A stretch of DNA of 64,000 nucleotides from assembly GCF_008107625.1 (NCBI RefSeq), contig NZ_SDKK01000015.1:62001-126000 (forward strand). Direction: 5' to 3'. Each line of letters opens with the position of its first letter. Within the stretch, counting starts at the first letter, position 1. The stretch is from Zoogloea oleivorans. Lineage in GTDB: Bacteria > Pseudomonadota > Gammaproteobacteria > Burkholderiales > Rhodocyclaceae. The notes below the pieces were generated by a model. That model searched no databases. It saw only the letters and a program-made list of their open reading frames with translations, and was not told the DNA's origin. The translations under genes and the position numbers were made by a program. Shown piece after piece: positions 4,845 through 17,555 of the stretch.

Positions 4845-4920
<76 letters not shown>

Positions 4921-5353: not shown

Positions 5354-5698
5354 ATGAAAGGACAAGGTTTCCTGCGGCGCTTCGGCTACGCGCTGAACGG
5401 CATCATCACGGCCTTCCGCCGCGAGCAGAGCATGCGCACGCACGGACTGGCGGTGGTTGGCGTCGGGATTTTTCTGGCGGCAACCGATGCGCCACCCGTG
5501 TGGTGGGCAGTGATCGGCGTAGCCGTCGGTCTGGTGCTGGTGGCAGAGCTGGCCAATACAGCGGTCGAGACACTGGCTGACCGCCTTCATCCGGAACATC
5601 ACCCGGAAATCGGCGTGGCGAAGGATGTGGCCGCCGGAGCAGTGCTGGTTGCCACGCTGGTGGCCATTGGCGTCGGCGTGGCTTACCTGCTGCGCTGA
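5354..5698 (+). CDS. dgkA: Diacylglycerol kinase
   Basis: This 114-residue small integral-membrane kinase phosphorylates diacylglycerol to phosphatidate in the inner membrane. The signature AELANTAVETLADR (E65, N68, E72) and KDVAAGAV (K90-D91) match the active-site region of the prokaryotic DgkA trimer. Three membrane segments are apparent, matching the usual length. Confidence 0.94.
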   Translation: MKGQGFLRRFGYALNGIITAFRREQSMRTHGLAVVGVGIFLAATDAPPVWWAVIGVAVGLVLVAELANTAVETLADRLHPEHHPEIGVAKDVAAGAVLVATLVAIGVGVAYLLR

Positions 5699-5709
5699 AC
5701 CGCCAGACA

Positions 5710-5746
5710 CGCATGAGCGGAACAGGACGAACCCTGCCCCGTCATG
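5710..5746. terminator. Imperfect hairpin between dgkA and tpx
   Basis: GCATGA and TCATGC arms with inner CGG/CCG and CAGG/CCTG pairings can fold between the two convergent genes. There is no clear U tract, so function as a bidirectional terminator is tentative. Confidence 0.35.
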
Positions 5747-5759
5747 CGCGATTCATCAA

Positions 5760-6263
5760 TCAGGCCAGAGCAGCCAGGGCGGCGGCGTAATCCGGCTCGT
5801 TCTTGATTTCGGCAACGAGTTCGGAATGCAGCACCTTGTCGTTCTCGTCGAGGACGACCACCGCGCGGGCGGTCAGGCCGGCCAGCGGGCCGCTGGCGAG
5901 CGCCACACCGTAATTCTTGATGAAGTCTGCACCACGCAGGGTGGACAGGGTCACCACGTTGGCCAGGCCTTCGGCGCCACAGAAGCGTGACTGGGCGAAG
6001 GGCAGGTCGGCCGAAATGCACAGCACCACGGTGTTGGGCAGATCATTGGCGGACTGGTTGAACTTGCGCACGGAGGTAGCGCAGGTGGGCGTGTCGACGC
6101 TCGGGAAAATGTTCAGCACCTTGCGCTTGCCGGCAAAGCTGGCCAGCGGGGTGTCGGCGAGATCCTTGGCGACGAGGGTGAAGGCCGGGGCGGTCTGGCC
6201 CTTTTGCGGCAGATCGCCTTCGACTTGCACGGCATTGCCGCCGAGGGTAACGGTATTGGACAT
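5760..6263 (-). CDS. tpx: Thiol peroxidase (atypical 2-Cys peroxiredoxin)
   Basis: The 167-residue protein reduces hydroperoxides with thioredoxin. It shows the Tpx peroxidatic motif PSVDTPTC (C61), with the resolving cysteine at C95 (SRFCGAEG). The length matches the family. It stands alone between dgkA (convergent) and the end of the cytochrome operon. Confidence 0.95.
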
Positions 6264-6372
6264 GGAGGCACTCCAGGGGAATTGAAAATGGTCTTGTTGT
6301 GGGCCGGCACGACGCTAACACCCCGAACCGGCCGCGCAATCTTAGGCGCAGCCGATGAATCCCGCCAGCCTT

Positions 6373-7857
6373 TCAAAGCGTCTTCAGATATTCGATAAGC
6401 GCCTCCTTGTCGGCCACCGAAAGTCCGGTGCCAAACTCGTGCCCCTGGTTGCTGCCCCCCTTCGCGCCGGTATCCATGCGCGAGCCCTCCCGGCGGGCCG
6501 CCTCACCATCGGAGACAAAGCCGACCCGCTGCGGGTCGTACACGTCGTAGCCGCGCCAGAAGACTTTCGGCCGGCTGGCCGCCGGCTCCAGCAGGTCACG
6601 CAGGGTCGGCACCGCGCCGTTGTGCAGGTAAGGGGCACGAATCCAGATGCCGTCGAGGAAGGGGATCCTGTAGCCGATCAGGTCTTCCTCGACCAGCCCG
6701 CGGCGTTCGATGCCCATGCCGGCGACAACCTTGTTGGCCTTGATCGCCGCATCCTTGTTCCACGAGTCGAGTCGGCCCCGGTCGGTACCGACCTCGGCGA
6801 GCGCCGCCGGGCGGCCGGTGCGTTCGCTGGCATGGCAGGTGGCGCACTGGGCCTCGAAGACCAGCTTGCCGGCGGCCGCGCGGGCGGCGTCGACAGGGAA
6901 AGGATAGTCGGGTGGCGGCAGCCGGGTCAGATAGTCCTCCAGCCATTTCACCTGCCCGAGAAAATCCGCCTTGTCGGCCGGCGCGGCGCCGAGCACGCCG
7001 AGGGCCGAATCGATCACCACCGAATGCACGTCATGGCTGTCGCCCGCGTAGTTGAGGCGATGGCCCTTGTCCCACGGGTACTTGCCGAGCTTCCAGATGG
7101 CCGGGATGTCAGTGGGGCCGAAGGTATCGTCCATCGGCGCGCGGATCATGAAGTACTTGGTGAGGTTCATGGCATCGTCGCGGCCGCGGCCCCAGTCGGG
7201 AAAATCCGGCCGGTACAGCCATTCGAACTGGGCCTCCCGCTCGAGCAGGCGCTTTTTGGTGATCGGAATGATGAGGAAGCGATAGAGCAGCCTGTCGATA
7301 ACGTCCAGACTGGTGACCCGATTGATCTCCGCCATCAGGATGTCGGCGTCGAAGCGCGGGTCCTTGGCGCAGTCGATGAGCAGGCGGAAGAAGTTCTGGA
7401 TGTTGACTGTGTGGCCCGGCCCGGCAGTCACGAAGACCGGGCTCGAATCGACACTCCGGCGGTAGCTGGTGGTGTGGCAGGCGGCGCAGTTGTTGGCGAC
7501 ACGGGGAAAGCCGATGGTTTTTTTGGTGAAGCCGACCGGCAGTTCCTGGCCCTCCTCCCAAGCCACGCCCAGCGCTGCATAGCCACCGGCAACCACCTGC
7601 CCGTCCTGACGGAACTTCTCGGGGAAGATCCGCGGCAGCACATAGAAGATCCAGTACGGAATCCCGGCATCGTGCTCGGCACCGATCGAACCGTATTTGA
7701 AGCGGCTTTCCGGCGTTTCAAAAACCCATGCCGGCTGGGGCTCTTCCCGAAAGCCGCGACTCCAGCCCAGATAGGCGCCGGCAATGAGCAGAAGGATCAA
7801 CCCCGCCAGAGCCGCCCTCTTCCCGCTGCGCCGGCTTATCCGATGTTCTGCATGCAT
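6373..7857 (-). CDS. Di-haem c-type cytochrome, RoxA/MauG-superfamily-like (A)
   Basis: This 494-residue protein has an N-terminal membrane anchor or uncleaved signal (about residues 16-32) and two haem-binding motifs, CAACH (124-128) and CATCH (338-342). Near residue 408 it has APYLHNGAVPTLRDLLEPA, typical of the di-haem peroxidase/RoxA-like superfamily. Start chosen at the ATG with GGGAG nine bases upstream. It is the last gene of a five-gene operon, 13 bases after its paralogue (B), which has its first haem at the same residue numbers. Oxygenase, peroxidase and electron-transfer roles all remain possible. Confidence 0.8.
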   Translation of the reverse strand: MHAEHRISRRSGKRAALAGLILLLIAGAYLGWSRGFREEPQPAWVFETPESRFKYGSIGAEHDAGIPYWIFYVLPRIFPEKFRQDGQVVAGGYAALGVAWEEGQELPVGFTKKTIGFPRVANNCAACHTTSYRRSVDSSPVFVTAGPGHTVNIQNFFRLLIDCAKDPRFDADILMAEINRVTSLDVIDRLLYRFLIIPITKKRLLEREAQFEWLYRPDFPDWGRGRDDAMNLTKYFMIRAPMDDTFGPTDIPAIWKLGKYPWDKGHRLNYAGDSHDVHSVVIDSALGVLGAAPADKADFLGQVKWLEDYLTRLPPPDYPFPVDAARAAAGKLVFEAQCATCHASERTGRPAALAEVGTDRGRLDSWNKDAAIKANKVVAGMGIERRGLVEEDLIGYRIPFLDGIWIRAPYLHNGAVPTLRDLLEPAASRPKVFWRGYDVYDPQRVGFVSDGEAARREGSRMDTGAKGGSNQGHEFGTGLSVADKEALIEYLKTL

Positions 7858-7870
7858 GGCAGGCTCCCGC

Positions 7871-9388
7871 TCAGAAGGTTTTAAGGAATTCGACGAGGGC
7901 CGTCTTGTCCTCATCGCTCAACTCGGTGCCGTAGGGCCGCCCCTCATGGCCGGCGTTGCCGTTGCCGGCCACCGCCGTATCGAAGCGGAAAAACTGGCGC
8001 CCCGCCGCCTCGGGCAGATCCGATACAAAGCCGACTTTCTGCGGATCGAACACATCGTTGCCGCGCCAAAACACCGCCGGCCGCCGCGCCGCCGGCTCCA
8101 GCAGGTCGCGCAGGCTGGGCACCGAGCCGTTGTGCAGGTAAGGCGCCCGCAGCCACAGGCCGTCGAGAGGCATGTTGGCGTAGCCAAAGGTCTTGCGGAA
8201 CTGGGTGAAGCGCCACGGATAGCCGGCGTAGAGCGCGGCCTGGTTGACCGCCAGCGTGTAAGTGTAGGAATCCAGCCGGCGGCGGTCGGTGGCGATGGCG
8301 CCGATGGGCGTCACGCGCCCCACATAATCCCCGCTGAAATCCCGCCCCGAAACGCCATGACAGACCGCGCAATATTCCTTGTAGATCGGCGCACCACGCC
8401 CAGCCAGAGCCTGATCGACGGGGAAGAGCGCGCTGAACGCCGGCGGCTGCGCATCGAGAATCCACTCTTCCACCCGCTTGATGCGCTGAATGTCGATGGT
8501 CGGCGGCGTGGTACCGGTGCCGAAGGCGGCGCTCTTGTTGCGCTCAGTCATATCCGTGTTGTTGCCATCCCAGTGCAGTTCCATGGCGCGGGGCTCGCGG
8601 CGCGGGCGCTGCAGCCAGATCGACGGAAAATCGGCCGGTGCATCAAGCTCCTTCGGGTCGAGCAGGTGCATCGGAAAGTTGAAGATCACCTTGGCGGAAT
8701 TGAAGGTATCAACCCGCCCCGGCCCCCACGCCTTCTGCTGAAAAACCCACTCGAAGCGCCCTTTCAGGGCCAGCACCCGGTCACGCATGATGGCGATGGC
8801 CACCGGATACACCACGTAGCGGTCGAGCAGATCGAGGTTGGCGCCCTGGCGCTGGATCTCGGGAATCAGGTATTCCTTGGAAAACTTGGGATCGGCGGCG
8901 CAACGGAAGAAGAAGGTCTCAAAGGCCTGCATGTTGAAGAGCGCCGCCGGCATCCCGCTCACCAGCAGTGCCGGCTTGTCCGGCGCGGCGCGTACGGTAC
9001 TGGTGTGGCACACCGCGCAATTGACGAAAACCCGGTCGATCCCTTGGTAACGGCGCTTCGAGGTGCCCACCGGCAGATCCTTGAGGCGGCCATCCGGGCC
9101 CGTCTCGTAAAGCATGCCGATGGACTGGTAGCCCTTGCCCGGCAGGTACTGGCCGCACACCTCCGGCAGCGCTCGCCAGATCCAGTACGGAAAGCCCATT
9201 TCGTGCTCGCCGCCGGTGGAACCATACTTGAAGTGCTCCACCGGATCGGCGTAATCCACCGGATAGTCGCCGCCGAAACGGCCCGCCAGCCACAGGACGA
9301 TCGTTGCCGGCAGGATCACTGTCAGCGCAAAGAGAATGAGGAAGCGCCGTTTCCAGGGGGCGGGGAAAATCACGGTACGGCGGGACAT
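7871..9388 (-). CDS. Di-haem c-type cytochrome, RoxA/MauG-superfamily-like (B)
   Basis: The 505-residue product carries an N-terminal hydrophobic anchor (about residues 15-36), haem motifs CAVCH at 124-128 and 340-344, and the same YLHNGSVPSLRDLLEPA block as protein A. It is plainly a diverged tandem duplicate of A. A GAGGAG ribosome-binding site precedes the ATG. In this superfamily one haem is usually catalytic and the other relays electrons; the substrate cannot be deduced from sequence alone. Confidence 0.8.
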   Translation of the reverse strand: MSRRTVIFPAPWKRRFLILFALTVILPATIVLWLAGRFGGDYPVDYADPVEHFKYGSTGGEHEMGFPYWIWRALPEVCGQYLPGKGYQSIGMLYETGPDGRLKDLPVGTSKRRYQGIDRVFVNCAVCHTSTVRAAPDKPALLVSGMPAALFNMQAFETFFFRCAADPKFSKEYLIPEIQRQGANLDLLDRYVVYPVAIAIMRDRVLALKGRFEWVFQQKAWGPGRVDTFNSAKVIFNFPMHLLDPKELDAPADFPSIWLQRPRREPRAMELHWDGNNTDMTERNKSAAFGTGTTPPTIDIQRIKRVEEWILDAQPPAFSALFPVDQALAGRGAPIYKEYCAVCHGVSGRDFSGDYVGRVTPIGAIATDRRRLDSYTYTLAVNQAALYAGYPWRFTQFRKTFGYANMPLDGLWLRAPYLHNGSVPSLRDLLEPAARRPAVFWRGNDVFDPQKVGFVSDLPEAAGRQFFRFDTAVAGNGNAGHEGRPYGTELSDEDKTALVEFLKTF

Positions 9389-9402
9389 GATCGTCTCCTC
9401 GC

Positions 9403-11163
9403 TTATTGATCGGTGGCGAGACAGGGGCGTAGGGCTTCATAACCGTCGGCCAGCAAGGTCTCAAGATCGGGATCGCGGCCACTTTCGGCCTTGAGCTGGG
9501 CGGCCACCACCCCCTCCAGCGCCGCCCGTTCGGGGCTCACGGCCCACGCGGCTGCATGGGTCCGGAAGGCTGGCAACAGGGTTTCAGGCGGCATCGGCGT
9601 CTTGTCCCGTTCGGCGAGCGGCCGCCGCGCCATCGCGAGGCGCACGTAGATGCGCGGCGCGCACTGGCGGATGCGAGCCTCCAGCCCGGCCGCCGGGCCA
9701 TGCAGAAAGTTGGGCGGAAAACGTTCGGCGCTCAGGTGGCAGGCCGCGCACCAGGCGTGGAAGCCGGCCAGGGCGGCGGGAAGCGGTCCGCTGGCGGTCG
9801 AGTTGGGCGGACTGGCCGGCAATTCCAGCCGGGCCGCTGGCCACAGGGTTGGCGACGATTTGCGAGGCGCTTCGCCCAGGGCCGTGAGCAGCGCAGCGAT
9901 CAGGCCGGCGCGAGGAATCGGCTGATCCGCCAGCAGGCTTCGGCCCGCCGGGCTGGCCACCACCGCCGCCATGGCACTGGCCAGCCTTTGGGGGCGCCGG
10001 ACCAGTGCAGCCTTTAAACGCAGCCAGTCACCGTCGGCCACGAATTCCGCCACGCCGACCACCGCCTCGGCAAGCGCGTCCGGGGCCTCGCCGCGCCACA
10101 CGGTATCGGGCGACCGCGGCAGCAGCGCATCGAAGCGCGCCGCCACATGGGAGCGAGCGACACGCGCGGCGCCCTCCTCCGGCCAGCGAGTCAGGCCCTG
10201 CAGCGGGTTGCGATTGGGCAGGTCGGAACGCCCGATGGCCAGACCCGTCGGCCACAGGCGGGCCGCAGACACGCGCAGCGGGCCGGCGACGACCTCCTCG
10301 GATACGGCATCCGGCGCCGCCGCCCGACCCTCCGCCAGGCGCAGGCGCAGCGCGGCCTCGAACAGCCCGGCCCGGCAGCGCAGGCCGACCTCGCCAGCGC
10401 CACAACCCTCGCGCCACAAGCGCTGGGTCAGCGCGAAGCGGTTGGCACGGCGCACCGCGTTGTCGATGGCGTAGGGCACATCCACGCCGCGCCCCACCGG
10501 AATGCCGTAAAAGCGACGCCCGACCTGGGCCAGCGTGGCAGCGACCTGCGGATTGGCGTTGGTTTCGTCCCACAAGGCACGCGAGAAGATCGGTGCGGCG
10601 TTCTGGTGGCAGGCGAAGCAGATGTTGCGGTTGGCGTAGAAAACCTGCGGATTGCCACCGGCGCGGTAATCCTTGACCAGCTGGAACTCGAAGCGCCCCG
10701 CCGCCTCGTTGTAGCTGATGACTTCCAGCACCGCCGACTTCTCCTGATAGCCGATGTAGAGCCGGTCCTTGAGCAACAGCGCACCCGGCACGGGCGGCGA
10801 ATCCACGCCGACCACCACGCGGGGAAAACGGAAGTAATCCGGCGCCGCCGCCGTGCGCTGCAGGGAGCGACCAAGGGGAATCAGCACCCGCTTGGCGGGC
10901 GGCAGCAGGCTGGCCGGATCGCCAATCAGTTGGGCGTCCACGCGGGCGAGCAGCTTTTCAAACGGAAAGGGCAGCATGTGGGTGACGCGACCGTCGCGCG
11001 TGCCGGCAAACAGGGCATCGAAAAGAGATCCGCCAACCGGCGGCAGGTGATCACCAGGGGCCGCCGGGTCCACCACCCATGTCGGCGACTCAAGCGCCCA
11101 CGCCGGCAGCATCGACGACACGCCGGCCAGCAGCAGGCGGATGAACAGGACGCGGCCCTTCAT
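9403..11163 (-). CDS. Di-haem c-type cytochrome-like exported protein (C)
   Basis: This 586-residue protein has a signal peptide (AWA-LES) and two CXXCH motifs: CFACH at 182-186 and CAACH near residue 470. It lacks the YLHNG block of proteins A and B, so it is a different branch of c-type cytochromes. It lies 14 bases before gene B and 24 bases after the lipoprotein gene, within the same operon. It probably acts as a periplasmic redox partner or a second catalytic subunit; that is inference. Confidence 0.72.
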   Translation of the reverse strand: MKGRVLFIRLLLAGVSSMLPAWALESPTWVVDPAAPGDHLPPVGGSLFDALFAGTRDGRVTHMLPFPFEKLLARVDAQLIGDPASLLPPAKRVLIPLGRSLQRTAAAPDYFRFPRVVVGVDSPPVPGALLLKDRLYIGYQEKSAVLEVISYNEAAGRFEFQLVKDYRAGGNPQVFYANRNICFACHQNAAPIFSRALWDETNANPQVAATLAQVGRRFYGIPVGRGVDVPYAIDNAVRRANRFALTQRLWREGCGAGEVGLRCRAGLFEAALRLRLAEGRAAAPDAVSEEVVAGPLRVSAARLWPTGLAIGRSDLPNRNPLQGLTRWPEEGAARVARSHVAARFDALLPRSPDTVWRGEAPDALAEAVVGVAEFVADGDWLRLKAALVRRPQRLASAMAAVVASPAGRSLLADQPIPRAGLIAALLTALGEAPRKSSPTLWPAARLELPASPPNSTASGPLPAALAGFHAWCAACHLSAERFPPNFLHGPAAGLEARIRQCAPRIYVRLAMARRPLAERDKTPMPPETLLPAFRTHAAAWAVSPERAALEGVVAAQLKAESGRDPDLETLLADGYEALRPCLATDQ

Positions 11164-11187
11164 CTCCGCGCTCCACGCCGACGCCCC

Positions 11188-12060
11188 TCAGCCGCCGGCC
11201 GCAGCCAGCACCTTGCGCGCCTGGGTGCCGGACCAGCAGTCTTCCTGCACCTGCCCGGTCTTCACGAAAGCGTCCCGGCCCTGCGCGTCCATGTCCTTGT
11301 TGTAGAGCGTGAAGTTCAGCGCAAAGCCCTTGTCCAGGTAGGCCCGACCTAGGTAAAAGCCGGGGCGGATCATGCGGATTTCGTCGCGCACGCGCAGGCC
11401 GCGGCGGCCGGCGAGGTAATCCGGGTTTTCCTGGTAGCCGGGGATTTCGTCGGTAAAAAAGTAGTCGATGATGATCGATTCTCGGCGGGCATCCAGCAGG
11501 CTCTGGCCGCAGTAGAGCTTGGCCGGAAAGAGCAGCCAGGTCTGCTTGCCATTGAAGTCCATCTTCTTCGGCTCGCCCTGCACCAGGCCCATCTTTTTCA
11601 GCACGCCCAGGTCTTCGATGCGGTTGCGCAGCACGCCCTCCTGACGATAGAAAACCTTGCCGCGCCACAGGGCTTCGCCCACATCCTCGAGCACGAGCCC
11701 CTTCAGGTGCAGGCCCAGACCGGTAAAGCCGCCGACAATCTCCGACAGCCGGAACTTGCCGCTACCACCGCGGGACAGCAGGATCCGGCCGTCGAAAGCG
11801 CCATCGGGGATCGGCCCGGCCGTGAGGCGGGCGTAGATCTGGTCGAGCTGTTCCTGATCGAGGGTGGCCAGGTATTCCGGCGTGACCTTGCCCAGCTCAA
11901 CAGTGGGAATCGGGTACTTGTACTCCACCTGGGCCAGATCCATCTTCGACTGGTAACTCTTGTCCCAGCTGGCAAAGGGGATATCCAGCTTCGGCACATT
12001 CTTGTTGCAGGCGCCAAGGGCGAAGGCCAGCGAGAGCATGACTGCGGTACGGACTTTCAT
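11188..12060 (-). CDS. Lipoprotein of unknown function in cytochrome operon
   Basis: A 290-residue lipoprotein has a signal peptide ending in a lipobox (LGAC, cysteine 18). No CXXCH motif is present. No family was recognised; the body is mixed alpha/beta with one internal cysteine (KLYCGQ) and another near the end (EDCWSG). An AGGAGAG ribosome-binding site precedes the ATG. Its place between cytochromes suggests an outer-membrane-anchored or scaffold subunit of the same system. Confidence 0.7.
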   Translation of the reverse strand: MKVRTAVMLSLAFALGACNKNVPKLDIPFASWDKSYQSKMDLAQVEYKYPIPTVELGKVTPEYLATLDQEQLDQIYARLTAGPIPDGAFDGRILLSRGGSGKFRLSEIVGGFTGLGLHLKGLVLEDVGEALWRGKVFYRQEGVLRNRIEDLGVLKKMGLVQGEPKKMDFNGKQTWLLFPAKLYCGQSLLDARRESIIIDYFFTDEIPGYQENPDYLAGRRGLRVRDEIRMIRPGFYLGRAYLDKGFALNFTLYNKDMDAQGRDAFVKTGQVQEDCWSGTQARKVLAAAGG

Positions 12061-12075
12061 GGCAGCTCTCTCCTC

Positions 12076-14700
12076 TCACAGGGTGGCGAGGAAGGCGGTG
12101 ATGGCCTTCTTGTCGGTTTCGGAAAGATCCTCGCCAAAGCGGTGACCTTCGTTTTCCACCAGCTGGTCGCAGGTTTGGTAGTTGGCGGCCAGGAAGTCAC
12201 GCTTCTCGCGCAGAATCTCGACGAAGCGCGCCGGGTTCTTCAGCACCTCGTCGGCGAGGCCCTGCAGGGTCGGCACCAAGGCCTTCTTGCCGGCCGCCTC
12301 CAGCCGCGCCGGGTCGCGCTTGGCGAGGAAGAGATCGCCGATCAGCTGCTTGTGCAGCAGGCCATTGAGAAAGCCGGCGCTGGCCCCCATCGGAATCTTC
12401 ACCTGCCCGAAGCCTCCGAGCGGCTTCTCGACTTTGCCCTCCAGCGGACGGATACCCAGGTCGATGAGCAGATCCGAATTGGTCAGAGTGATCTTGCGGC
12501 CCCGCTCCTGCGGGTGCAGCAGCTCGTGCATGGAACGTTTGTAGAGTTCGAAACGCCCGTCCACGCTCGGGTCGTAGCGCACGCAGGCGGGCTGCTCGAC
12601 GAGCAGCTTGTTGTCCTCTCCGGCGTACCGGGCCCGGTGGAAATCGTTGTCCTTGTTGGCCGGCTTGCCGCACACCTCCGGCCCAATGGCGTTGTTGTGC
12701 ATGAAGGGCGCGGTGAACCAGACATTCACCAGCGAGATGTTGCGCATGTAGCCGCGGCCGCCGTTCTTCAGGTCTTCGCGCTCGGGAATGTCGGCCACAC
12801 TGGGCCGGCCGCGCATGCTCTCCGAGCCGTACTCCTGGTAGAGATGACCAGCCAGGTGGTTGGAATGCAGCGAGCGGCAGCGGAAGGTGCCCACTTCGGT
12901 GATCGGCGTGGCCTGGTCGTTGCCGAGGAAGTCAGCGCGCACCTTGCGCGGGTGGGCCTCGTTCGGCGCGGCAAAGTCCCGCCCCTTGAACGGCCCGCCA
13001 GCGGCTTCGGGAATGCTCGAATGGCAGCGTGCGCAGTTTTCGGCGAACACGGTCTGACCGCGCGCCACGGCTCCTTTGCCGAATTCCTTGTCGAGATCGG
13101 CGATCAGGTCGGCGCGGCTGTAGCCGGCCGCCGGGTTCTTCGCCTTGCGGGCGTTGGCGCGGGCCGCGTGCAGGTCGGTTTCATCCGATTCGGCCGAGGC
13201 GAAGAAGTCGAGGAGATTCTGCAGACGGTCCTCGACGGCCCGGAAGTTGGGGCAGTCGCGCCGGCACTGGCCGACATTGAAGGCAGTCTGGCCAAAGCCG
13301 CGCTGCTCCGGGTCCACCTGGCGCATGTCGGTAAAGTGATTGACCCAGCACTGCTCGGAGCAGGAGCCGATGTTGAAGTACACGCGCTGAATCGCCTCGT
13401 GGGCGCCGGTGGAATCCTCGCCGCCCTTGAGAATGTGATGCACGCCCGGCAGATTCACCTTGGCGCCGCCCAGAAAAACCGGCGTCACATCATCGCTGCG
13501 GGTGGAAAACTGCCAGCACTTGCCCTGCCGGCCAGGCTCGCACCAGCATTTGGCTTCGTCCTTCTCGGCACCGCACTCGGCCACCTTGCGCCACTTGCTC
13601 ACCGCCTCGCCCTTGAACACCGGGCGCTGGGCCACGTTGATCAGCGCGTTGATGCTGCCCGGGTTGTTCACCTGGTCATGGGAGATCGCCGAGGTGTCGG
13701 TAACGCCCGGCCGCGCGTGGGCGAACATCTGGTATTCCAGCGCCGACTTGGGCATGCCCGAGCCGAGCAGTTCGGACATGCGGGTGTACTGGTTGCCCAC
13801 CAGACCCTTGATGTTTTCCCACTGCGGATGCGCCGGATCGGCCGGCGGATTAAGCGGGTCGAAGGCGATGTGGCAGGAGCCGCAGGAGGTACCGATCAGG
13901 AACGGCGGCTCGACCGAGCCATCGGCCAGCTTGCTCACCCGGCGGTCGGAGTCGATGCCGGTTGTCGCATCCATCTTGCGGTCGAAGCCCACCCAACTGG
14001 CATTTCCACCATTCAGGGCCTTCCATTTTTCGGCGTCGAAGCGCGGATTCGGGAACTTGCGAATGCCCAGCGCGCCGGTAGAGGTGCCGAACTTCAGGTC
14101 GCAAGCCGTGTGGCGCTGATCAAGCTTGCCGCCCTGGCTGTGCGGGTCGTCCGGGTCGAGGGCGGCGTCCTTCAGGCCGCAGGCCGGGTCCACGTAGTCG
14201 GGCTTGCCGACGTATTTCAATAGCACGTCGTCACCGGGGCACCAGTCGAAGCCGTAGGTTTCGTCGGATGACTTGGCCGGGCAGTTGGCATCGCCCGGCT
14301 TGCAGCAGGACGGGTCGTTGATGATGCCCCAGGCCCAGAAGCGGTCATCGCGCTGGTCGGCGCGCAGCACGCGGAACCAGTCCACCAGCACGCCGACGCG
14401 CTGCTGGAAGGTGTAGGTGTGGAAACGTTCGTTGCCGGCAGTGGCCTTGAACCAGATCAGGCGGCCGACACATTCGGATTCGCTGAGCCCTTCACGGGCA
14501 CACGATTCACGGTAGGGCAGATCCTGGTCCACCAGACCGACCTCCGGCACCCGTGGCATGGGCGGCGCGGCTTGCACAGCCGGGATATCGGCCGCATGAG
14601 CGAGGGTCAGACCGGGGTCGAATCCAGCGGAGTGCGTGAAGAGCCAGATCCCAAACACGGCAATGGCGACCGCGACCGCGGCCAGACAGGTGCGCTTCAT
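12076..14700 (-). CDS. Large multi-domain di-haem c-type cytochrome (D)
   Basis: The 874-residue exported protein has an N-terminal signal or anchor (residues 5-22) and two haem motifs, CGSCH near 275 and CARCH near 557, plus an APFMHNNAIGPEV block analogous to the YLHNG block of A and B. Many extra cysteines (for example CCKPGDANC and CEPGRQGKC) suggest disulfides. An AAGGGG Shine-Dalgarno precedes the ATG. It is the promoter-proximal gene of the operon and is larger than RoxA, MauG or bacterial cytochrome c peroxidases. Confidence 0.78.
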   Translation of the reverse strand: MKRTCLAAVAVAIAVFGIWLFTHSAGFDPGLTLAHAADIPAVQAAPPMPRVPEVGLVDQDLPYRESCAREGLSESECVGRLIWFKATAGNERFHTYTFQQRVGVLVDWFRVLRADQRDDRFWAWGIINDPSCCKPGDANCPAKSSDETYGFDWCPGDDVLLKYVGKPDYVDPACGLKDAALDPDDPHSQGGKLDQRHTACDLKFGTSTGALGIRKFPNPRFDAEKWKALNGGNASWVGFDRKMDATTGIDSDRRVSKLADGSVEPPFLIGTSCGSCHIAFDPLNPPADPAHPQWENIKGLVGNQYTRMSELLGSGMPKSALEYQMFAHARPGVTDTSAISHDQVNNPGSINALINVAQRPVFKGEAVSKWRKVAECGAEKDEAKCWCEPGRQGKCWQFSTRSDDVTPVFLGGAKVNLPGVHHILKGGEDSTGAHEAIQRVYFNIGSCSEQCWVNHFTDMRQVDPEQRGFGQTAFNVGQCRRDCPNFRAVEDRLQNLLDFFASAESDETDLHAARANARKAKNPAAGYSRADLIADLDKEFGKGAVARGQTVFAENCARCHSSIPEAAGGPFKGRDFAAPNEAHPRKVRADFLGNDQATPITEVGTFRCRSLHSNHLAGHLYQEYGSESMRGRPSVADIPEREDLKNGGRGYMRNISLVNVWFTAPFMHNNAIGPEVCGKPANKDNDFHRARYAGEDNKLLVEQPACVRYDPSVDGRFELYKRSMHELLHPQERGRKITLTNSDLLIDLGIRPLEGKVEKPLGGFGQVKIPMGASAGFLNGLLHKQLIGDLFLAKRDPARLEAAGKKALVPTLQGLADEVLKNPARFVEILREKRDFLAANYQTCDQLVENEGHRFGEDLSETDKKAITAFLATL

Positions 14701-14812
14701 GGCTGCATCCCCTTCCCGGAAGATTGCTTGCCCGGCACCCGCCTCGACGCGGTGGAGTCTTATGCCCCCTGGTTCAGTCAGGATTCTCTCTGTCGGGGCC
14801 GGTCATGATGGT

Positions 14813-14840
14813 GTTATAGCAAAGATAAGGCCCCCTGCAA
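14813..14840 (-). promoter_or_regulatory. Candidate sigma-70 promoter of the cytochrome operon
   Basis: On the minus strand TTGCAG (14840-14835) and TATAAC (14818-14813) are 16 bases apart, in the gap between the LysR gene and gene D. The leader would be about 105 bases. Confidence 0.4.
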
Positions 14841-14850
14841 TCCGGCACGC

Positions 14851-15759
14851 TCAGGGCAGCCCCTGATCCCAGTAAGGCACCGGGCCAATGCGCTCGGCCA
14901 GGTAGTCCGCCAGCGCTCGCACCCGGGTGGGCAGATAGCGGTTGCTCGGAAAGACTGCGTAGATACCCAGTTCGGGGCTCGGGTATTCCGCCAGAATCAC
15001 CTCGAGCAAGCCGGCCTGCACGGCCGGGGCGGCAATGAAACTCGGCTGCCGAGTGATGCCCAGACCACGCTGGCAAACATCCACAAGGGCATCGCCGCTG
15101 TTGGCCTGGAGCCGGCTTTTCACCGGCACCCACAGCAGCTCGCCATTGACCTGATAGGGCCAGGCCGCCCGGGCGGTACCGGTGTAGCCCAGACAATGGT
15201 GCCCGGCGAGATCGGCCGGCACCTGCGGGCGACCGTGACGCGCCAGGTATTCCGGCGAGGCCAGCGTCAGCAGCCGGGACGAACAGATGCGCCGCGCCAC
15301 CTGGGTCGGGTCGAGCGCGGTGGTGATGCGGATCGCCATGTCGAGGCCGCTTTCGATGAGATTCACCTGGCGGTCGTTGAAGTCGATGTCGAGGCTCACC
15401 TCGGGAAAGACCGTCACGAAATCGGCCACCATCGGCGCCAGGTGACGCACCCCGAAACTCACCGGCACACTGAGGCGGATCGGGCCGCGGGGAGTACGGT
15501 CGCCGCCCGACAAATCGCCCTCGGCAGCGCCCACCAGATCGAGGATTTCCCGGCAGCGCTCCAGGTACACCTCGCCTTCGGCCGTGAGCTTGAGGCTGCG
15601 CGTGCTGCGGGCGATCAGCTTGGTACCCAGGTGCGCCTCCAGCGCCGCAACGATGCGCGTCACCGCCGAACGGGCCAGCCCCAGGTGATCGGCGACGGCC
15701 GTGAAGCTGCCCGCCTCGGCCACGCGGATGAAGACTTCCATGCCATGCAGTCGATCCAT
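14851..15759 (-). CDS. LysR-family transcriptional regulator
   Basis: This 302-residue regulator has the LysR winged helix at residues 1-60 (MEVFIRVAEAGSFTAVADHLGLARSAV, read in two parts) followed by a periplasmic-binding-like effector domain. It is divergent from the NmrA-like reductase gene at 15862, the usual LysR arrangement, with a 102-base intergenic region for a shared operator. It also precedes the cytochrome operon on the same strand. Start chosen because the helix-turn-helix begins a few residues after MDRLHG. Confidence 0.92.
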   Translation of the reverse strand: MDRLHGMEVFIRVAEAGSFTAVADHLGLARSAVTRIVAALEAHLGTKLIARSTRSLKLTAEGEVYLERCREILDLVGAAEGDLSGGDRTPRGPIRLSVPVSFGVRHLAPMVADFVTVFPEVSLDIDFNDRQVNLIESGLDMAIRITTALDPTQVARRICSSRLLTLASPEYLARHGRPQVPADLAGHHCLGYTGTARAAWPYQVNGELLWVPVKSRLQANSGDALVDVCQRGLGITRQPSFIAAPAVQAGLLEVILAEYPSPELGIYAVFPSNRYLPTRVRALADYLAERIGPVPYWDQGLP

Positions 15760-15861
15760 TGTTTCAAATCCAGCAACAAAGATTTCCCCATTAAAGGCTA
15801 TTTCCGGGCGAATCGAAAGCCTAAAGTGCAGTCCATACCCAACCAAAACAGAGAGAACGCC

Positions 15862-16743
15862 GTGATCCTCGTAACCGGCGCCAATGGCCAGCTTGGCCGG
15901 CGCATCGTCCAGCACCTCATCGCCCGCTCTCCGGCCCCCGTGGCCGGCAAGCTGGCGGTGAGCGTGCGGGACCCCGGCAAGGCCGCCGACCTGGCGGCCC
16001 GGGGCGTGGAAGTACGGCACGGAAACTTCGACCACCCGGACACCCTCGCCAACGCCTTCGCCGGCGTCGAGCGGCTCGTTCTGGTGTCCACCGACGGCCC
16101 GCGGGAACAACGCATCGTCCAACAGCGCAACGCGGTGAGCGCTGCAGCACGGGCCGGCATACAGCACGTCTACTACACCAGCTTCCTCGACGTGGCCGCC
16201 GACTCGCCGTCGGAGTTCGCCGCCATCCATCGGGACACCGAAGCCGCACTGGCCAATAGCGGCCTGGCCCACACGCTGCTGCGCCTGCCCCTCTATGCCG
16301 AAGGCTTGGCAATGATTGCCGGGCTGGCCCTGGAGGGTGGCGTGCTCTACCTGCCCGCCGGCAAGGGCGCGGCAAGCCTGGTGTCGCGGGACGATCTGGC
16401 TCAGGCCATCGCCGCCGCCGCCCTCGCCCCGCGTCTCGACAAGCAGGTGTATGAACTGACCGGCCAGGTGGCTGCCGACTACGCCAGCATCGCCACAAAG
16501 ATCGCCCGCGCCAGCGGCCGGTCACTGGTTTATAAAGCGGTCCAGGAGACCGACTACATCGCCGCACTGGTGAAACATGGTCTGTCCATCTGGCTCGCCA
16601 CGGCCCTCGCCAAACTGTTTGCCGCCGTCGCCGAAGGCCGCATGGCCGCCACCGGCAACGATTTCGCCGCCCTCGTCGGCCACCCGCCCAAATCCCTGGA
16701 CTGCCTGATCCACGAGCATTTCGCCCCGAGGAACAAAGCATGA
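15862..16743 (+). CDS. NmrA/QOR2-like NAD(P)H-binding reductase
   Basis: The 293-residue protein begins MILVTGANGQLGRRIV, an N-terminal Rossmann motif of atypical short-chain dehydrogenases, and resembles YtfG-type quinone oxidoreductases throughout. Translation likely starts at the GTG at 15862, preceded by GAGAG. It is the first gene of a redox operon divergent from a LysR gene and overlaps the next gene by four bases. LysR-QOR2 pairs often respond to electrophiles or quinones; the inducer here is not known. Confidence 0.85.
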   Translation: MILVTGANGQLGRRIVQHLIARSPAPVAGKLAVSVRDPGKAADLAARGVEVRHGNFDHPDTLANAFAGVERLVLVSTDGPREQRIVQQRNAVSAAARAGIQHVYYTSFLDVAADSPSEFAAIHRDTEAALANSGLAHTLLRLPLYAEGLAMIAGLALEGGVLYLPAGKGAASLVSRDDLAQAIAAAALAPRLDKQVYELTGQVAADYASIATKIARASGRSLVYKAVQETDYIAALVKHGLSIWLATALAKLFAAVAEGRMAATGNDFAALVGHPPKSLDCLIHEHFAPRNKA

Positions 16744-17555
16744 CTGCCCGTCACCCCGTTCTTTTCGTCTCCCACGGCGCCCCCGACGTACTGCTCAACC
16801 CCGGTGCCACCGTGCATCTGTGGGAAAAGCTCGGCGCCAAACTGCCGCGCCCCACCGCCATTCTGGTGATCTCCGCCCACTGGGCCGCTCGCGAACCAAC
16901 CGTCAGCACGGCCCGCACACCCGAAACCATCCACGATTTCGGCGGTTTTCCCGACGCGCTGTACGCCATGCAGTACCAGGCCCCCGGCGCACCGGCGCTG
17001 GCCGCCCGGGTGCGCGAGCTGCTCACTGCGGCAAAGCTGCCGAATGGTGAAGTCTCCGACCGGGGCCTCGACCACGGCGCCTGGATTCCGCTGCAGGCCA
17101 TGTATCCGGACGCCGACATTCCGGTGGTCGAGCTGGCCCTGCAGCCCTTCGCCGGCACCGACTGGCACCGGCGCATCGGCGCCGCCCTGCGCCCGCTGCG
17201 CGACGAAGGCGTGCTGATCCTCGCCTCCGGTGCCGTCACCCACAACTTCGGCTGGCTCACCTGGGGCGACAACAGCACCCCGCTCCCCCAGGCCGTCAGC
17301 TTCGCCAACTGGCTTGGCGACGCCCTCGCCCGCGACGACCGGCCGGCCCTGCTCGAATACCGCCGCCTCGCCGCCCAGGGCGCAGCCGCCCACCCCAGCG
17401 AAGAGCACCTGCTGCCGCTGTTTGCGGCCCTCGGCGCCGCCAATCCGGGTGAAATCCCGCTGCGCCTGGAACCCGAATACACCTACGGCGGTCTGGCCAT
17501 GGACGCCTACCTGTGGCAAGAAGGCAGCCAGACCCCTTTCCAAACGGAGCAATAA
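16740..17555 (+). CDS. DODA-type extradiol ring-cleavage dioxygenase (YgiD-like)
   Basis: This 271-residue enzyme matches the class III extradiol dioxygenase (LigB-fold) subfamily that includes YgiD. Motifs include FVSHGAPD near residue 10, ISAHW near 44, the LDHGAW segment near 111 and SGAVTHNFG, which supply metal-site histidines. It probably cleaves a catechol-type ring; the natural substrate of YgiD-type enzymes is uncertain. It is translationally coupled to the reductase upstream and two bases ahead of the cytochrome b561 gene. Confidence 0.88.
   Translation: MTARHPVLFVSHGAPDVLLNPGATVHLWEKLGAKLPRPTAILVISAHWAAREPTVSTARTPETIHDFGGFPDALYAMQYQAPGAPALAARVRELLTAAKLPNGEVSDRGLDHGAWIPLQAMYPDADIPVVELALQPFAGTDWHRRIGAALRPLRDEGVLILASGAVTHNFGWLTWGDNSTPLPQAVSFANWLGDALARDDRPALLEYRRLAAQGAAAHPSEEHLLPLFAALGAANPGEIPLRLEPEYTYGGLAMDAYLWQEGSQTPFQTEQ

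Follow-up and report, generated by a model that had tools for sequence, protein, structure and literature searches.

A conserved operon for four di-haem c-type cytochromes and a lipoprotein in Zoogloea oleivorans and its relatives: a possible lipid-oxygenation pathway

What is the function of an operon that encodes four c-type cytochromes, each with two haems, and a lipoprotein? Such a locus lies in Zoogloea oleivorans (family Rhodocyclaceae; RefSeq assembly GCF_008107625.1), within a stretch of 64,000 nucleotides (nt) that we call the window (contig NZ_SDKK01000015.1, positions 62,001 to 126,000). A preliminary description had reported that the five genes are encoded together, and the open reading frames (ORFs), the counts of CxxCH haem motifs, and the lipobox of the lipoprotein confirm this. 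In the sense of transcription, on the minus strand, the order is E-LP-C-B-A. In window coordinates, the features are:

12076-14700, minus strand: gene E, an ORF of 874 residues with 25 cysteines, di-haem c-type protein
11188-12060, minus strand: gene LP, an ORF of 290 residues, lipoprotein
9403-11163, minus strand: gene C, an ORF of 586 residues, di-haem protein
7871-9388, minus strand: gene B, an ORF of 505 residues, di-haem protein, membrane-tethered as judged by eye
6373-7914, minus strand: gene A, an ORF of 513 residues, or 494 residues from the ATG at 7857, di-haem protein
14701-14850, minus strand: the intergenic leader of the operon, with no promoter supported by our scan

E, C, B, and A each have exactly two CxxCH motifs and LP has none. 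The motifs are at residues 273 (CGSCH) and 556 (CARCH) in E, 182 (CFACH) and 472 (CAACH) in C, 124 and 340 in B, and 143 and 357 in A. The preliminary description placed the motifs of A and B at the same residue numbers. This nearly holds if A begins at Met20 (base 7857), which moves its motifs to 124 and 338, but not if it begins at 7914. The start at 7857 is likelier because it leaves a gap of 13 nt behind B, which resembles the median of 11 nt in related loci; the spacings within the operon are then 15, 24, 14, and 13 nt. LP has a lipobox (LGAC, with the cysteine at residue 18), and, by eye, the N terminus is signal-peptide-like in C and a hydrophobic helix in A, B, and E, so all five proteins are expected to be outside the cytoplasm. 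A single plausible promoter had also been proposed, which we could not confirm: a sigma-70 scan of 5600-15900 gave 0 sites, and the 150 bases that separate E from the stop codon of a LysR gene show by eye only one TTGCAG-16-TATAAC-like site. Overall, the promoter and terminator scans of this region gave nothing informative for the operon.

The preliminary description had raised the question of whether the grouping persists in other genomes, and it does: the five genes are a conserved unit. Scanning genome contigs with E gave 66 related loci, 53 of which have all five genes, without exception in the order E-LP-C-B-A. This implies that the arrangement is not due to chance. (The count is 53 instead of 54 because the apparent A of L067 is its truncated B.) Twelve of the 13 incomplete loci run off the contig or stop no more than about 130 nt past the last gene that we could identify. 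At just one locus (L030:8122-8919), the 798 nt behind C contain no B sequence, which could be due to a rearrangement or an assembly fault. E and LP are joined in one frame in L048, and C is broken in L041 and L055. The median gaps among the related loci are 17, 32, 24, and 11 nt; the exceptions are 1634 nt between LP and C in L067 and 427-675 nt between B and A in L025, L034, and L037. If a cluster of antisense ORFs is set aside, the flanking cluster with the widest distribution was present in 20 of the 71 sources compared. (Neighbour counts are from simple ORF picking, not a gene caller.)

By title, most of the 66 loci are from Zoogloea, Dechloromonas, Azonexus, Propionivibrio, Accumulibacter, Aromatoleum, or Thauera. 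The rest include some other proteobacterial metagenome-assembled genomes (MAGs) and one Nitrospirales MAG with E alone before the contig ends. The closest relative of the window's E is from Zoogloea oleivorans (L032; 95% identity). Among sampled genomes of the window's GTDB family, 11 of 81 have E. In samples of the phylum, which count the window genome, we found E in 5 of 299 genomes, and C and LP each in 2 of 298. The sole outside C (in G078) is directly after a relative of E, and the sole outside LP (in G235) is the second gene past one, so C and LP accompany E in these samples. (In G078, at L014:8223-13196, E and C are followed by a 255-residue one-haem protein that partly matches the GEGP motif-containing diheme family.) Many of the carriers are bacteria of sewage sludge and groundwater.

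We then asked which families the proteins belong to. A and B are paralogues (38% identity), and the preliminary description had placed them in a RoxA/MauG-like superfamily. This is well supported. Both match the RoxA-like domain PF21419 (E = 1.5e-15 for A and 2e-15 for B), and a joint profile of A and B finds RoxA in the Protein Data Bank (PDB:4b2n) at E = 6.7e-22. The alignment to RoxA consists of three stretches: the region between the haems, with RoxA's W302 and F317; the HNG block, which in A and B is of the MauG type; and the C-terminal axial histidine. Both proteins also exceed the cut-off of NF040606 (177.5 bits for A and 193.7 for B, with a cut-off of 150), while core members of that family score about 400-610 bits. 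(When NF040606 was scored in the genome search, A fell under the cut-off.) In a tree of 51 rows, A and B form sister clades, each joined by its own relative from genome G086. The combined clade has support of 100/99 and is separate from 23 core rows of NF040606 and from 3 Rox-like rows, which themselves score under the RoxB cut-off. Some long branches in this tree were flagged, and it omits L082 (a short piece), L099 (an internal stop), L097 (no motif match), and L112, L113, L116, and L117. By their sequences, A and B are di-haem proteins of the RoxA/FadCcp superfamily, with their own clade within it.

We also examined the residues that correspond to the active site of RoxA. F317 is described as essential in RoxA, and the two RoxC proteins tested, which have alanine at this position, had no rubber activity (PMC10837239, PMC4496055). 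B has tryptophan at the W302 position and phenylalanine at the F317 position in all 53 rows that cover them; the 54th row (L067) ends before. A has leucine at the F317 position in 51 of 51 covering rows. At the W302 position, the 49 rows of A that match the pattern have 42 tyrosines, 3 tryptophans, 2 leucines, and 2 phenylalanines; among the other rows, two more have tyrosine by eye and three are cut off.

The preliminary description allowed for superfamily members beyond A and B, and E bears this out. E has an APFMHNN block and a C-terminal NEGHRFG, and it matches the A/B profile at the second haem, the HN block, and the C-terminal GH (probability 98.4%, E = 1e-14). Profile comparison ties E to the superfamily through its second-haem half. 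On NF040606, E scores 22.7 bits, under the cut-off. A second branch of E proteins (L011, L012, L013, L135, and L136) is about 25-30% identical over the length of E, and each has a GMC oxidoreductase gene directly behind it. In four of these (L011, L012, L135, and L136), PFLLNN or PYLLNN replaces the HNN block, so the histidine is lost, while L013 retains PFFHNN. L011 also contains LP and a DyP-type peroxidase. (Alignments A3 and A5 of E leave out L078 and L005/L014.) Overall, A, B, and E each lie in or near a known superfamily.

C had been described as a third type of cytochrome. It does have two haem motifs, but it could not be placed in the RoxA/MauG-like superfamily: profile comparisons with A/B and with E matched only a CxxCH stretch, so we rejected it as a member. 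C reached no family cut-off in scans of Pfam and NCBIfam, and it does not match NF040606. The AlphaFold model of C is confident (predicted local distance difference test, pLDDT, of 87 and predicted template modelling score, pTM, of 0.88), and it has no fold match in the PDB library (the best E value was 2.0). The two haem motifs are 290 residues apart in the window's C, and at least 364 apart in 50 of the 55 two-haem orthologues. The window's C and that of L032 are without a middle stretch of roughly 100 residues, with two extra cysteines, that most orthologues have.

LP has no match in Pfam or NCBIfam. A loose lipobox pattern is present in 63 of 64 orthologues. The predicted structure is of middling quality (pLDDT 71, pTM 0.75), and later structural matches were chiefly to NanoLuc and to retinoic-acid-binding proteins. 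The model weakly suggests that LP may be calycin-like. We also considered LP as a DUF4334 protein, with which it shares a similar short WxGKxF motif, but rejected this because a profile comparison with two DUF4334 proteins was negative and Pfam gave nothing.

What do relatives of A and B do outside of the operon? A search of 303 genomes of the class with the A/B profile found matches in the window genome, G528, and G323. G528, from the same class as the window, has an operon-like run (L145:7211-15007) of a haem peroxidase, a cytochrome P450, an LP-like gene, B, and A. Its B and A are 65% and 67% identical to the window's proteins, and its B keeps the equivalents of both W302 and F317. Its LP is shortened and has no lipobox at the called start. 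The haem peroxidase is closest to a plant fatty-acid alpha-dioxygenase (PDB:4kvj, E = 1.1e-55). Among the best 60 matches of the P450, the nearest are of the P450-BM3 type (E = 1.6e-14). This run is itself a candidate oxylipin pathway. Similarly, G086 (L118:2767-10559) has an A-like gene, a clear alpha-dioxygenase (4kvj, E = 4.9e-113), an unknown gene of 302 residues, an Old Yellow Enzyme (OYE), and a B-like gene within 8 kb. We chose 18 genomes with E or A/B and found the An_peroxidase family in two of them, exactly G528 and G086; the background is 2 of 19 genomes of the class, including the window genome (G000). E is absent from both G528 and G086. In G130 (L144:4180-9640), a B-like di-haem gene directly follows a fusion of a GMC oxidoreductase and a hydrolase (1150 residues). 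Neighbours at NF040606-type loci, in a scan that left out L126 and L127, include weak catalase-like genes (L122 and L124), a CrtC-type lipocalin (L120), and an alpha/beta hydrolase (L125). The company of A and B outside the operon, namely alpha-dioxygenase, P450, and OYE, points to fatty-acid-type lipids.

There is also a precedent among characterized enzymes. In the periplasm of Pseudomonas aeruginosa, the tandem di-haem pair PA2077 and PA2078 (oleate-diol synthase) produces a hydroperoxide and a diol from oleate (PMC4496055). Also, RoxC lipoproteins have been reviewed as possible oxidisers of unsaturated fatty acids of the cell envelope (PMC10837239).

We propose, at about an even chance, that the five proteins form an oxylipin-type pathway: tethered to the membrane in the periplasm, they would oxygenate unsaturated fatty acids or lipids like them. 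We infer the substrate, the pathway steps, and the division of labour. E, possibly with C, would make the first oxygenated lipid, such as a hydroperoxide. LP, which is lipid-anchored and perhaps calycin-like, would hold the lipid or pass it on. B, with the phenylalanine of RoxA's oxygen pocket and the tryptophan between the haems, might be a second oxygenase or the main dioxygenase. A, with leucine in the pocket, might convert or remove the (hydro)peroxide, as PA2078 does for PA2077. LP-B-A would then be a shared lipid-oxygenation module, and E and C the front end that Rhodocyclales use instead of alpha-dioxygenase and P450. A bolder proposal, which we make tentatively and consider rather doubtful, sees in E and C a lipid-oxygenating machine of a new kind, made up of a large di-haem cytochrome and a di-haem protein with a new fold, that functionally replaces alpha-dioxygenase and P450 before this shared module. 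This would give Rhodocyclales (Zoogloea, Accumulibacter, and Dechloromonas) their own oxylipin pathway, perhaps linked to flocs or biofilms as in Pseudomonas.

Several observations weigh against a lipid-oxygenating pathway. First, the link to alpha-dioxygenase comes from two outside genomes only, and in G323, B and A occur without An_peroxidase, with the distant E of that genome (26% identity) on a different contig. Second, the pocket phenylalanine varies: relatives of B have leucine (G086), isoleucine (G323), or methionine (G130) at the F317 position (the last two read from the sequence), and 18 of 25 core rows of NF040606 have leucine, with the three Rox-like rows unaligned. Third, the first-haem half of E does not align to RoxA or to the A/B profile, and C is tied to lipids by gene position alone. 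Fourth, the GMC oxidoreductases beside distant E proteins suit dehydrogenation as well as oxygenation, and the neighbours at three NF040606-type loci (L119, L121, and L123) are without lipid meaning or family. Fifth, the calycin-like match of LP is weak (the top Foldseek match is 4mve_A, E = 4.8e-3, TM-score by target of 0.56, which we take to be a DUF4334 protein), and the link to DUF4334 failed. Finally, the analogy of A to PA2078 is loose because PA2078 remains active when its haem histidines are mutated (PMC4496055).

The following genes lie around the operon:

5760-6263, minus strand: thiol peroxidase (NF001808), directly after A
14851-15765, minus strand: LysR gene, divergent from a gene for an NmrA-like short-chain dehydrogenase/reductase (SDR)
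15196-17555, plus strand: the NmrA-like SDR gene and then a LigB-type gene
4845-4920, minus strand: tRNA-Met (cat)

The thiol peroxidase gene lies behind A in only 9 of 47 related loci, all of them named Zoogloea or closely similar MAGs, so we rejected it as a sixth member of the operon. Similarly, only 17 of 66 loci have a LysR gene no more than 2.5 kb upstream (15 of the 58 loci whose upstream sequence is longer than 2.5 kb), again all Zoogloea-named or closely similar MAGs. Given this, and its divergence from the SDR gene, we rejected LysR as the operon's own regulator.

Could the operon instead be for periplasmic peroxide defence? A and B would then reduce hydrogen peroxide or organic hydroperoxides, E and C would be electron donors or further peroxidases, and LP would be a scaffold. 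NCBI's name for A and B is 'di-heme-cytochrome C peroxidase', as both exceed the cut-off of NF040606, and the thiol peroxidase gene behind A fits as well. RoxA's phenylalanine is missing from A and from most of the NF040606 core. But NF040606 gives a name by similarity, and the A/B clade lies apart from the family's core; B keeps the pair of RoxA oxygenase residues; and the other 38 of the 47 loci have no thiol peroxidase neighbour. Four different di-haem proteins and the company of alpha-dioxygenase and P450 would also be left unexplained. We consider this explanation unlikely.

Another alternative is a dehydrogenation or electron-transfer chain, in which E (and C) would collect electrons as an alcohol or a sterol-like lipid is oxidised and pass them to the respiratory chain, with A and B as auxiliary proteins. 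The GMC oxidoreductases that adjoin the distant E proteins of the second branch suggest this, as does the B-like gene of G130 that comes after a GMC/hydrolase gene. However, no GMC gene is among the scanned neighbours of the operon in the window, and the GMC-linked relatives of E are those with only about 25-30% identity, 4 of 5 of which have lost the histidine of the HNN block. A chain of this kind seems distinctly improbable.

The preliminary description noted that superfamily members include oxygenases that cleave isoprenoid polymers. For this operon, cleavage of rubber or another isoprenoid polymer in the manner of RoxA or RoxB is unsupported and very improbable. The RoxA-like domain of A and B and the W302 and F317 equivalents in B would fit, but A scores 49.7 and 65.7 bits and B scores 50.9 and 47.7 bits on the rubber-oxygenase models NF050033 and NF050034, whose NCBIfam cut-offs are 1000 and 900 bits. 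Across the RoxA, RoxB, and RoxC models, the scores of A and B are 47.7-74.6 bits, or under 9% of cut-offs of 900-1000. On these scores, and given that the tree separates A and B from the Rox-like rows, we rejected a rubber-oxygenase identity. Also, A and B appear by eye to have N-terminal membrane anchors, while RoxA and RoxB are described as having secretion signals (PMC10837239), and the company of A and B in other genomes is of fatty-acid-type enzymes.

Equally hard to credit is a MauG-like modification of a partner protein (LP or C) by one of the di-haem enzymes: the HNG block of A and B is of the MauG type and LP and C are linked partners, but no MauG-named chain from the PDB was listed for A alone (E up to 1) or for the A+B profile (E up to 0.01), the non-RoxA di-haem enzymes nearest to A are 6e1c ('Di-heme enzyme', E = 0.21) and 9qdt ('Probable cytochrome c peroxidase', E = 0.27, or 0.0062 with the profile), and the LP of G528 is short and without a lipobox at its called start.

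If the lipid-oxygenation proposal is correct, then bacteria of activated sludge and phosphorus removal have a route to oxygenated lipids that is built almost wholly of c-type di-haem proteins. It would also offer a testable function for two families that have none (C and LP), and it would link lipid oxygenation to the proteins that go by the loose name of 'di-heme cytochrome c peroxidases'. Since Pseudomonas oxylipins promote biofilm formation (PMC5155153), a part in forming flocs would be open to direct testing. The preliminary description knew of no operon with this full set of genes, and among the top matches in the open-access literature, we did not find a description of one either. As far as those matches show, no one appears to have described the gene set, the family of C, or the exchange of front ends.

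How does the operon compare to known systems? We compared it to the PA2078-PA2077 (FadCcp) operon as published (PMC4496055). Like A and B, these are tandem di-haem paralogues of the RoxA superfamily in one periplasmic operon, and A and B share with them the MauG block and the C-terminal axial histidine. PA2077 resembles B in keeping the equivalents of W302 and F317. PA2078, like A, differs in its pocket: it has S243 and F260 where A has mostly tyrosine, and leucine, and so retains the phenylalanine that A lacks. The FadCcp proteins are longer (634 and 624 residues), and E, C, and LP are not described there. FadCcp also has an adjacent LysR regulator, OdsR (PMC6377657), which has no conserved counterpart here.

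RoxA and RoxB share with A and B two c-type haems, the PYxHNG block, and the C-terminal axial histidine, as well as W302 and F317 in the case of B. A and B differ from them in their low scores on the Rox models, their apparent membrane tethers, and their operon partners. RoxC proteins, according to the review (PMC10837239), lack F317 and W302, and the lipoprotein of our operon is a separate gene without haem. As for NF040606, A and B pass its cut-off yet fall outside its core group of 23 rows. Finally, the run in G528 has LP, B, and A in the same order as in the window, but an animal-type haem peroxidase and a P450 occupy the place of E and C.

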